Origin: Nostoc carneum NIES-2107
GTDB lineage: Bacteria > Cyanobacteriota > Cyanobacteriia > Cyanobacteriales > Nostocaceae
Direction: 5' to 3'
Length of the DNA stretch: 64,000 nt
Assembly: GCA_002368155.1 (NCBI GenBank)
Contig: AP018180.1
Span: 1,632,777 to 1,696,776 of the forward strand
Made by a program: the position numbers and the translations under genes. A model generated the notes under the pieces. That model ran no database searches. It was not told the origin of the DNA and saw only the letters and a program-made list of their open reading frames with translations. Below, in pieces: positions 37,347-47,259 of the stretch (within the stretch, counting starts at the first letter, position 1; each line of letters opens with the position of its first letter).

Positions 37347-37390
37347 CGCAGGGGGAGAAAAAAATATTCTCTGACTATATTGCAAGATGG

Positions 37391-37584
37391 TTCAGTTAAG
37401 AAAATTAATTGATCACAAAACCAAAAAACTAGTTACTCAACAAAAAAACAGAACAATAATTTTGGAGGGGGTTTGGGGGACGCAACCGTCACCCAATCGG
37501 GGGTTTGGGGGAGAATCCCCCAATTGATCTGGCTTTTTTAATTAAGTGACAAATCAATCACTAATGAACTTAACCCAAGCGTAT
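37391..37584. repeat. ~190-bp interspersed element, copy A
   Basis: TTCAGTTAAGAAAATTAATT at the left; a G-rich core (GGAGGGGGTTTGGGGGACGC, AATCGGGGGTTTGGGGGAGA) that folds on itself; TGACAAATCAATCA and TTAACCCAAGCGTAT at the right. Copy B is at 39230-39372 (inverted) and copy C at 46959-47149 (same orientation). Confidence 0.8.
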
Positions 37585-37829
37585 TGGACTATATTGGATA
37601 ATTTAATTTCTGGAAGTCCTCTATACATACAATAGATTGTCACAAGGTGGTCATGGCTGCGTAATATGCAATTGCTAGCCTGAGATTGAGAAAAATATAG
37701 TTTTCCATTGATTCCACTTTGGACAATCACTCTATGATTCTCAGCAAAAAAATCGCTGGGAGTAGAAACTTATACCCGTTACCGCTTTGACAGCAACCAA
37801 CCCTTCTTCTCCTACTCCCTTAATGAATT

Positions 37830-37931
37830 ATGTCTACTGTTATTCTGGCTGGATTTTTAGTAAGTTTAGTGACTGTGTCTGGATGTGCGGCGATCGCCTA
37901 TCTGTTCCCGCAAAAAAACTCTCACGACTAA
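37830..37931 (+). CDS. Possible 33-aa single-helix membrane protein
   Basis: MSTVILAGFLVSLVTVSGC, then AAIAYLFPQKNSHD and a stop. One clear transmembrane span with a charged, hydrophilic C-terminus, the size and shape of photosynthetic small subunits (Psb/Pet type). It does not match the PsbM, PsbX, PetN or PetM sequences I know. A HIP1-like CGATCGCC site lies within. No convincing Shine-Dalgarno, so this is a candidate only. Confidence 0.4.
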   Translation: MSTVILAGFLVSLVTVSGCAAIAYLFPQKNSHD

Positions 37932-37952
37932 CACCATGACACTTATATTGAG

Positions 37953-38021
37953 AACTATAGGATTTAGATTTGATTTATAAAATACAAGTTGGGTGCGTTA
38001 CACCCAAGGCTAACGCACCCA
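37953..38021. repeat. GATGCGTTA-family palindromic element, fourth copy
   Basis: AACTATAGGATTTAGATTTGATT lead, split here for length, and an 11-bp stem TGGGTGCGTTA / TAACGCACCCA at 37990-38021. Same build as 21811-21886 and 22501-22566 but with a diverged, still fully paired stem. It lies 30 bases beyond the end of the gene ending at 38051. Confidence 0.6.
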
Positions 38022-38050
38022 AATCATTGAATCATACTTTACTAGGATTT

Positions 38051-38506
38051 CTATCCTGAATAAGGATCGGAGTTTGGATCTGTTGGTGGTAGCGATTGTG
38101 GTGGTGGATCGCTGGGTGGTGGTGGTTCAGACGAGGAGTCTTTAATCTGTGATTGTAAGGCTTTGCCAAGAACGTAGGAAGTACTACTAATCCCCAACAA
38201 TCCCAAAATTTGATCGGGAATAGAAGTGGGAAATGCTGGTGGTTTGTTACTAGTAATGATCAAGACTAAACTCATGGAAATCACAAAAGTGAAAATCAAT
38301 AGTTGAAACCTGGCCAAACTTGCATCGCCAGTGCTTTCACTAATCAGCTTATCAAGATTAATTCCCCGTTTTTTATTAGTTTTTGCATTCCAAGTTCCTT
38401 CCCAAATAAATATCAAAATAAATATTTCTAAAACTGCAACAAAAATCGTAATAACACAACCGATAACCAGCGCCAAAATTACAAAAAGATCATTAATGCT
38501 AGGCAC
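38051..38506 (-). CDS. Membrane protein of a paired module, 151 aa (downstream partner)
   Basis: GTG start with GGAGGT seven bases upstream, inside the end of the preceding gene; the two overlap by eight bases. TM1 at ~8-36 (FVILALVIGCVITIFVAVLE), a basic loop (TNKKRGINLDKLI), then an ARFQLLIFTFVISMSLVLII helix. LLGISSTSYVLGKALQSQIKD follows, with a proline-rich tail (SEPPPPSDPPPQSLPPTDPN). The R-x-Q-L-L-x-F-T and LG-S-S/N-x-x-Y-x-x-x-K blocks recur in the partner protein. I know no named family. Both are small membrane proteins, probably a heteromer. Confidence 0.7.
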   Translation of the reverse strand: MPSINDLFVILALVIGCVITIFVAVLEIFILIFIWEGTWNAKTNKKRGINLDKLISESTGDASLARFQLLIFTFVISMSLVLIITSNKPPAFPTSIPDQILGLLGISSTSYVLGKALQSQIKDSSSEPPPPSDPPPQSLPPTDPNSDPYSG

Positions 38507-38879
38507 GCTCTGACCTCCGTTCTTTAATAAGTGAAGTCAACTTGCTCCAAAGATAGGCAAAGTTGCTTCCTCCCAATGCATAGAGAAATTCTGCTCGGAT
38601 TTGTGGCATACTACATGGCAAGCTTGAAACTTTGCAAGTATTTAAATTTTGCCTAACATCAAATAGGTAGTACGCAACAAATATCAGGGTGAATAGCAAT
38701 AACTGCAATCGCTCTGGGCTATACTTTTTATTCTTTGTTTTGTCAAAAAGTAATCCTCTAAGATTGATTTTCTTTTTGATAATCAGAAAAAATACAGAGG
38801 ACATTAAACCCACAAGAAATAACCAAATTTCAAACTGAATAAACTTGGATAAAAGATTAAATCCCCATTGTATTTCCAA
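38499..38879 (-). CDS. Membrane protein of a paired module, 126 aa (upstream partner)
   Basis: TTG start supported by GGAGG seven bases upstream. TM1 (FEIWLFLVGLMSSVFFLII), a basic loop (KKKINLRGLLFDKTKNKKYS), TM2 with ERLQLLLFTLIFVAYYLF, then LYALGGSNFAYLWSKLTSLIKE. Same order of blocks as the 151-aa partner: R-x-Q-L-L-x-F-T helix followed by LGxS-aromatic-K. Two cysteines (TCKVSSLPCS) sit in the loop. Translationally coupled to the partner. Function unknown. Confidence 0.7.
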   Translation of the reverse strand: MEIQWGFNLLSKFIQFEIWLFLVGLMSSVFFLIIKKKINLRGLLFDKTKNKKYSPERLQLLLFTLIFVAYYLFDVRQNLNTCKVSSLPCSMPQIRAEFLYALGGSNFAYLWSKLTSLIKERRSERA

Positions 38880-39229
38880 AATTCATCCTCCACCTCAAAC
38901 CAATATATTGCAGATTTAATAGCTGCTAAGACAGTCAATATATTAAGGTGTGATTTGTGTTTATAGCGTAACTGATATAAAAATTATTTTTATATCAAAA
39001 AAGTTAGTGAATTGTAAAAATTATTCACCCAGAGATTGATCTAGAACTATGATTTGGTGTTTGCGAAAAATTTAGACATCCCTATCTCTCTTCTTTCCTA
39101 TCTTTAAAGCTATTTCAGGAATTAAATTCAGCTTCAGGATCAATAAATTTTGAATTAGTCAATTATTCCTTGATGGTACATCGACAGTAGAGGAGGAATT
39201 TAAAATCCAATACAGTTCAGATTAAGAGC

Positions 39230-39372
39230 ATTAGTGATTGATTTGTCAGTTGTGGAAACAGCTAGCTCAATTGGGGGATTCTCCCCCAAACCCCCGATTG
39301 GGGGACGGTTGCGTCCCCCAAACCCCCTCCAAAATTATTGTTTTGTCCTCAATTTATTTTTTTAACTGAAAT
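39230..39372. repeat. ~190-bp interspersed element, copy B (inverted, internally deleted)
   Basis: The same G-rich core as 37391-37584 in reverse complement (TTGGGGGATTCTCCCCCAAA, GGACGGTTGCGTCCCCCAAA). About 40 bases of the AT arm are missing. With copy A it encloses the membrane module. The rest of the gap 38880-39566 is AT-rich and shows no gene. Confidence 0.8.
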
Positions 39373-39566
39373 GTATTGATTTAAAATCCAAAATTTTCCG
39401 CTCCCAACTATCAAGGGTATGGACGTAGATTATTAACCAAAAAAATATGGATGAGATTTTAATCCCATCCATATCCCACCTACCTAAATATGAGGATTGC
39501 AGCACTGTTGTATTGCACTCCAGATACTCAAGTAGAGGACTCGTTAGCATTTAAGCATTAACTATT

Positions 39567-39758
39567 TTATGTAGATTGAGTAGTTTCCTCAGGCTCACTG
39601 GGTGGAGTAGTTTCTTCAGACTCACTAGGTGGAGTAGTTTCTTCTGTATCGGTGGTTGTGGTTTTTGGTGGCTCTTGATTGGGTAATAAAGGCTTGGGGT
39701 TAGGTGGAGTATAACTACTCTCAACTGGGGTGCTGGTTCTTTCTAATGTATAAACCAT
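39567..39758 (-). CDS. Small Pro/Thr/Glu-rich protein, 63 aa
   Basis: AAGGT about nine bases upstream of ATG. No hydrophobic segment. The C-terminal half is low complexity with a twice-repeated EETTPPSE unit (SESEETTPPSEPEETTQ). Composition matches the Pro-rich tail of the 151-aa membrane protein on the same strand, which may hint at a common partner. A short disordered protein of unknown role. Confidence 0.45.
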   Translation of the reverse strand: MVYTLERTSTPVESSYTPPNPKPLLPNQEPPKTTTTDTEETTPPSESEETTPPSEPEETTQST

Positions 39759-46870: not shown

Positions 46871-46958
46871 AGATTTTCTCACCTCATCTCCCCAATCCCT
46901 CAGCTTGACTTAGTGATGCAATATTTATTTAGTTGGAAGTCCCTATGACCAAATACAG

Positions 46959-47149
46959 TTCATTTAAGAAAATTAATTGATAACAAAACCAAAAAACTAG
47001 TGACTCAACAAAAAACGGAACAATAATTTTGGAGGGGGTTTGGGGGACGCAACCGTCACCCAATCGGGGGTTTGGGGGAGAATCCCCCAATTCTTCTGGC
47101 TTTTTTAATAACTGACAAATCAATCGCAAATCCCTTAACCCAAGCGTAT
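46959..47149. repeat. ~190-bp interspersed element, copy C
   Basis: Near-identical to 37391-37584 along its full length, including the TTAACCCAAGCGTAT end. It sits between the regulator and the DJ-1-like gene, within their shared gap 46813-47259. Confidence 0.8.
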
Positions 47150-47259
47150 CGCCTTAATACCTATCCTTTTGGCTAGTGAAATAATTACAACACGCTTGTT
47201 AAGCTGAGGAATCTGGGGAGACTGGGGAATAACACAACTTGATTCGACCTTTGCAGTTT

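Follow-up and report, generated by a model that had tools for sequence, protein, structure and literature searches.

Two short repeats in inverted orientation enclose a pair of overlapping genes in a 64,000-nucleotide stretch of the Nostoc carneum NIES-2107 genome (contig AP018180.1, positions 1,632,777 to 1,696,776; hereafter the window), which raises the questions whether the repeats carry the genes as a mobile unit and what the two encoded small membrane proteins, here termed P1 and P2, might do together. The original prediction described inverted elements of about 190 bp within positions 37391-39372 giving the locus the look of a composite transposon, and it regarded the two proteins as diverged halves of one ancestral domain that may form a heteromeric membrane complex. 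We show that the repeat part of the locus is ordinary and that the gene pair is of main interest.

Repeat copies A and B are independent insertions of a MITE-like element

The limits of both copies were defined from their end repeats and target-site duplications. Copy A is a MITE-like element of 204 bp on the plus strand (37383-37586), placed between a left (37373-37382) and a right (37587-37596) target-site duplication, GACTATATTG, agreeing in 10 of 10 positions. Copy B comprises 171 bp in inverted orientation on the minus strand (39208-39378) and is flanked by ATTTAAAATC on its left (39198-39207) and right (39379-39388) side, also with a 10/10 match. The element ends are the terminal inverted repeats CAATAC..GTATTG, degenerate at the left end of copy A, and no gene was recognised inside this copy. 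The inverted arrangement is real, the two copies sharing complementary arms of 91 nt (95%), 36 nt (83%) and 30 nt (90%), while the predicted size and limits need correction to 204 and 171 bp, with both elements extending beyond the predicted interval. The 10-bp duplications are perfect at both copies, yet different between A and B. Among 20000 random position pairs an agreement of at least 9 of 10 was reached once; for nine further copies, whose limits were picked by best flank agreement, the flanks agree in 10, 2, 9, 7, 10, 8, 7, 8 and 10 of 10 positions.

In the 9.36-Mb genome the repeat is matched at least 46 times, counted from 40 scored candidates out of 99 and with some matches being fragments of a single copy; the best other copy among the matches listed is 96% identical. 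The pattern of the element ends, allowing up to one mismatch, occurs 101 times in the genome compared to a single occurrence of the pattern read backwards, and together these counts exclude a chance origin of the repeats. We thus find terminal inverted repeats, a separate duplication for each copy, many dispersed copies and no internal transposase, as expected for a MITE, copies A and B being too short with 171-204 bp to hold such a gene. By eye, no autonomous transposase partner with the same ends was recognised in 16 of the 101 end-match loci. A third copy of the MITE-like element lies at window positions 46952-47150, with end matches at C1:1679728-1679744 and 1679910-1679926. Nezha is a short, non-coding element with inverted ends, many copies and target duplications. 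It resembles copies A and B in all these features, compared by description only; the element described here has CAATAC..GTATTG ends, a 10-bp duplication and no transposase partner recognisable by eye at the 16 end loci. MITEs are known from cyanobacteria, and Nezha is named as a cyanobacterial MITE in the references of the same source (PMC10969869, available in part).

If the inverted elements carried the gene pair as a unit, as their orientation would allow, flanking insertion sequences with a transposase, a single outer target duplication and empty sites free of the cargo would be required. What we observe is a different, perfect duplication at each copy and, in three relatives (L039, L040 and L042), the same-locus flanks with the gene pair in the same order and without either repeat. 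At site B these relatives lack hardly more than the element itself; at site A they have about 13 bp in place of about 330 bp of the window, with about 120 bp beyond the element differing as well. The stretches of these three relatives contain other copies of the element elsewhere, and the stretches of L037, L041, L043 and L044 (16-18 kb each) show no repeat match longer than 60 nt. The module thus stands without copies A and B at the same locus in L039, L040 and L042, and without a repeat match of more than 60 nt around it in L037, L041, L043 and L044, which is the lack of relation between repeats and module boundaries that the original prediction itself had named as speaking against it. No transposase gene was recognised between A and B, and each gene of the pair is present in a single full-length copy in the genome, compared to the at least 46 matches of the repeat. 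The separate duplications and the three relatives having the pair without the repeats refute a composite transposon or mobile cassette, to which we assign a very small probability. As each copy has its own, different 10-bp duplication, A and B are independent insertions of a short non-autonomous MITE-like element flanking an older chromosomal operon; the empty sites together with these duplications show that the gene pair is not cargo of the repeats. In the closest relative, L038, both copies are present, and copy A is split by an insert of about 1.2 kb. This insert holds an ORF of 369 aa (L038:5372-6481) that is transposase-like by eye.

P1 and P2 are overlapping paralogous genes under purifying selection

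Both genes lie on the minus strand where they were predicted (38051-38879). P2 (38499-38879; 126 aa, predicted TTG start, block SPERLQLL ... LGGSNFAYLWSK) is the paralogue upstream of P1 (38051-38506; 151 aa, predicted GTG start, block GDASLARFQLLIFTF ... LLGISSTSYVLGK, followed by a proline-rich tail), and the two reading frames overlap by 8 bp. A Shine-Dalgarno-like GGAGGT (38513-38518, minus strand) precedes the P1 start within the codons of the conserved and in fact invariant RRSER tail of P2, a placement that suggests translational coupling of P2 and P1.

The two blocks noticed in both proteins, R-x-Q and G-x-S-x3-Y-x3-K, are real, and it is in these blocks that both families are most strongly conserved. 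Invariance in P2 is confined to R, Q, S, Y and K, as judged from 20 rows leaving out the degenerate P2 of locus L065; in P1 the corresponding Q, S, Y and K are invariant and R is nearly so. The seven cyanobacterial rows of P2 share two cysteines in the outer loop, at positions that hold no cysteine in the 13 others. Values of dN/dS of 0.09-0.22 for P1 and 0.04-0.20 for P2 (seven comparisons per gene, 14 in total, with dS near or above 1 in several) indicate purifying selection.

The prediction that both proteins are diverged halves of one ancestral domain is borne out by three lines of evidence. A single comparison of the cyanobacterial profiles of P1 and P2 using hhalign yields a probability of 85% and an E-value of 6.8e-6, the HMM of each family matches members of the other, and a tree of 74 hairpins has one branch (88/82) with all 21 P1 rows to the same side and a further one (85/95, drawn open) for which this is true of the 20 P2 rows together with the single-hairpin form and one second hairpin of a fusion, based on 58 columns, few for such a tree, with some long branches and a bootstrap that is not settled. 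On sequence evidence, P1 and P2 are shown to be paralogues. The hairpins of fused proteins do not sort cleanly into P1-like and P2-like ones. Rows from Cyanobacteriota, Acidobacteriota, Gemmatimonadota, Thermodesulfobacteriota and Myxococcota sort by type and not by phylum, with modest support, for which reason the superfamily looks old.

P1 and P2 occur strictly as a pair

Among 58 genomes, including the one of the window, nine have both genes and 49 have neither; the nine include all eight searched members of the genus. Across 386 genomes of the phylum (own genome included, about ten candidates scored per genome) both genes were found in the window genome and one further genome, G375, the other matches being few, weak and to long fused-type proteins. 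A wider genome scan revealed 22 loci of P1 in five phyla in all, eight cyanobacterial, of which six apparently are the same contigs as in the set of 58 genomes, and 14 from other phyla, so that the family reaches far beyond this strain, a point on which the original prediction could have failed. A P2-like ORF is located directly upstream of P1 in 22 of 22 loci, 14 of which served to train the P2 HMM. One of these P2 proteins, from L065, is degenerate, lacking Y and K, and was left out of the P2 alignment; L067 was left out of the first P1 alignment. Among the relatives of the set of 58 genomes, L037 and L044 have the pair in other surroundings, whereas in L041 and L043 it has the opposite orientation and a distance of about 8 kb to the kinase gene also present at the window locus. 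P1 was not found in the plasmids, phages or viral contigs searched, and P2 gave a single match in phage records with an E-value of 0.9.

The two proteins are predicted to be parallel and match no named family

The structural model of P1 is of low confidence (pLDDT 60.0, pTM 0.34) and contains helices at residues 4-39, 61-85 and 98-122; P2 has three helices as judged by eye. The model of a 200-aa fusion (pLDDT 74.7, pTM 0.65) shows two hairpins, at residues 42-63/73-97 and 147-170/178-195. The K/R bias, with loop limits taken from the model for P1 and set by eye for P2, is negative in 19 of 21 rows of P1 (one 0, one +1) and in 20 of 20 rows of P2. Both proteins are predicted to be N-out/C-in with loop 1 and the C-terminus inside, and the same sign of the bias leads to the prediction that they are parallel. 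The shared core would then be a helical hairpin in which R-x-Q opens one helix on the cytoplasmic side, a proline-containing outer loop follows, and G-x-S-x3-Y-x3-K runs along the helix after it.

No match above the curated cut-offs was obtained in Pfam, NCBIfam, PHROGs, PDB sequences or, with P1 and P2 as the only queries, PADLOC, which supports the statement of the original prediction that no family name applies, in the libraries searched. A match to DUF5408 at 0.06 and other sub-threshold matches were taken as chance. Foldseek searches with the fusion model gave a best E-value of 1.4 against the PDB and nothing at 0.001 there or in a viral structure library. In the literature searched, which covered few subscription papers, we found nothing on the P1/P2 pair, so that it may be published. 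SLATT 2TM effector domains are small, two-helix membrane domains. P1 and P2 resemble them in being small membrane proteins built on two-helix domains; they differ in having no SLATT family among their Pfam matches, and no paper on SLATT was found in the literature searched.

Other comparisons are offered by YdgE/YdgF, which are paralogous small membrane proteins encoded by neighbouring, overlapping genes and arranged antiparallel, and by DUF606, for which antiparallel pairs of small membrane proteins as well as two-domain fusions exist (PMC3962082, available in part). P1 and P2 share with these the origin as paralogous small membrane proteins from neighbouring genes; in contrast, they have the same K/R bias, and the unit repeated in their fused relatives is a two-helix hairpin (comparison with the available part of PMC3962082). 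An antiparallel pair of the SMR/DUF606 type is not supported, the K/R bias having the same sign in 19 of 21 P1 and 20 of 20 P2 rows.

Relatives occur as two-hairpin single chains and as a single hairpin

We identified single chains containing two hairpins at 17 loci, with open frames of 200-728 aa; one of them, a frame of 551 aa, belongs to the genome of the window itself. In most fusions Y or K of the signature is missing from the first hairpin. For one fusion an IPT/TIG match below the threshold was obtained. With one query, the fusion turned up on two alphaproteobacterial plasmids; a second query gave no plasmid match, and the fusion was not found in phages.

A single-hairpin protein of 81 aa was found in genome G093 (E-value 3.5e-4 for this genome, 194 genomes searched), which is listed at 7% contamination. 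Its gene lies in a putative provirus (L124:7113-7358 / L136:6001-6246), downstream of a tail gene (phrog_5939, E-value 8.5e-18), and shares 14 bp with the beginning of a Peptidase_M15_4 gene (E-value 2.1e-12), making it a candidate unlisted holin. An IMG/VR contig encodes a protein with 100% identity to it, and the neighbouring ORFs there read alike; beyond this contig the single form was found neither in the viral contigs nor in the phages searched.

Neighbouring genes differ between loci, with T3 as a recurrent neighbour

The gene next after the pair encodes an Amidase_2+SH3 protein in Geomonas (L060) and a Muramidase+SH3 protein in L069, i.e. a peptidoglycan-hydrolase gene adjoins the pair in 2 of 14 non-cyanobacterial loci; beside the cyanobacterial pairs none was recognised by eye. 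M23, DUF2272 and M15 genes occur at a distance of up to about 6 kb from a Rhizobium fusion, and metallophosphoesterase genes adjoin two fusions. Other neighbours at single loci are a caspase (L060), Patatin (L062, on the opposite strand, and L069), a Tle1-like phospholipase (L127), a subtilase (L130) and a GDSL lipase (L135). Among 98 neighbours from 25 loci (107 near ORFs minus 12, likely antisense or over-long, plus three) we found no enrichment of a Pfam family near the pair or the fusion, this being a count without a matched control and leaving out L073, L107, L108, L124 and L132-L134. The commonest are MacB_PCD (4), Response_reg (3), Radical_SAM (3), FtsX (3), Patatin (2) and SH3_3 (2) in the 25 of 123 families listed, outside of which caspase, subtilase and GDSL fall.

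One family, T3 (e.g. L071:6327-7436, with 11 further loci having T3 beside the pair or the fusion), is located beside the pair in 10 of the 14 loci outside the cyanobacteria, six of these 10 having seeded its profile, and beside the fusion in 2 of 17. Its presence beside both forms ties pair and fusion together. L131 was the sole cyanobacterial pair locus searched with this profile and gave no match; in the cyanobacteria examined no gene is a constant partner of the pair. T3 has a hydrophobic N-terminus, by eye that of an exported protein, and invariant D-x-H, E and D-x-x-H; three members scanned had no Pfam match at 0.05, and a PDB match was not found.

The gene pair probably forms a heteromeric membrane complex

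The strict co-occurrence of P1 and P2 and the presence of both hairpins in single chains of relatives argue for the heteromeric membrane complex originally proposed, and we consider a parallel heteromeric complex of P1 and P2 probable. In the model that we favour, P1 and P2 would stand side by side as one obligate heteromeric complex, like the two hairpins in the single-chain relatives, and this complex would be a holin-like or export-type assembly working with envelope-acting or exported partner proteins. The lean towards a holin-like role comes from the provirus relative abutting an M15 peptidase gene and from the two pairs preceding hydrolase genes. Known holins and type 10 secretion (PMC9527704, available in part) resemble the family in involving small membrane proteins, and two holin-like proteins in one cassette have been described (PMC13056207, available in part). 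The P1 model of low confidence and P2 as judged by eye fall within the 1-4 membrane helices of holins. In contrast to holins, P1 and P2 match no holin profile in Pfam or PHROGs, have a strongly conserved polar core and are chromosomal and under purifying selection. The missing holin match, the lack of hydrolase enrichment and of a hydrolase gene recognisable by eye beside the cyanobacterial pair, the failure to find P1, the single form and the fusion in phage records (with one P2 match at an E-value of 0.9), the degenerate P2 of L065, the loss of Y or K from most first fusion hairpins, the poor model of P1, the lack of a solved structure similar to the fusion model and the listed contamination of G093 all count against the explanation as a whole, i.e. 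independent MITE insertions around an old operon encoding a heteromeric holin-like or export-type complex, which we hold to be evenly balanced between right and wrong; the holin-like or export-type action of the P1/P2 complex, taken by itself, is a tentative suggestion.

Its main rival, which we regard as similarly tentative, is a small two-subunit channel or transporter in which the S-Y-K stripe and R-x-Q would line a path between the hairpins. Such a path would account for R, Q, S, Y and K being the sole invariant residues in P2 and for their invariance, nearly complete in the case of R, in P1, S-x3-Y-x3-K would come to lie on one face of a helix, and the duality of pair and fusion is known in small membrane proteins (DUF606; PMC3962082, available in part). 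The first hairpins of most fusions, however, would lack part of this lining, the degenerate P2 of L065 stands outside the rows in which the positions are invariant, the orientation by charge is parallel and not antiparallel as in the known pairs, and nothing hints at a substrate. Alternatively, P1 and P2 might serve a variable conflict system as its envelope scaffold or immunity-type membrane subunit, with a hydrolase cargo differing by locus, which would fit the caspase, Patatin, phospholipase, subtilase and lipase genes at single loci; yet each hydrolase type occurs only once or twice among the 98 neighbours, counted without a matched control, and PADLOC has no match for P1 and P2, making this reading improbable.

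Returning to the holin-like reading, a broader and speculative form of it, somewhat less likely than the suggestion on P1 and P2 themselves, takes the R-x-Q/G-S-Y-K hairpin as a membrane superfamily without a name that is spread over a provirus, two-gene operons and fusions in at least five phyla. It might act as a parallel two-subunit holin/antiholin-like export pore that passed between phage and bacteria in one direction or the other and was retained by filamentous cyanobacteria for a housekeeping or envelope role. If the holin-like reading holds, the pair would be a two-subunit export pore that has been domesticated and lies outside the known holin families; if this reading fails, the family still offers a clear example from nature of membrane domains, apparently parallel, that exist both as pairs and as fusions. 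In either case it is an uncurated superfamily of small, easily studied proteins that come in single, paired and fused form.

Two further observations concern the surroundings of the pair. An LpxD-like gene, by eye, follows the pair on the same strand in two cyanobacterial genera (L044:9294-10355 and L131:5410-6477). Upstream of the pair in the window, at 39567-39758, there is an ORF of 63 aa rich in Pro, Thr and Glu, with a 27-nt direct repeat in three copies.
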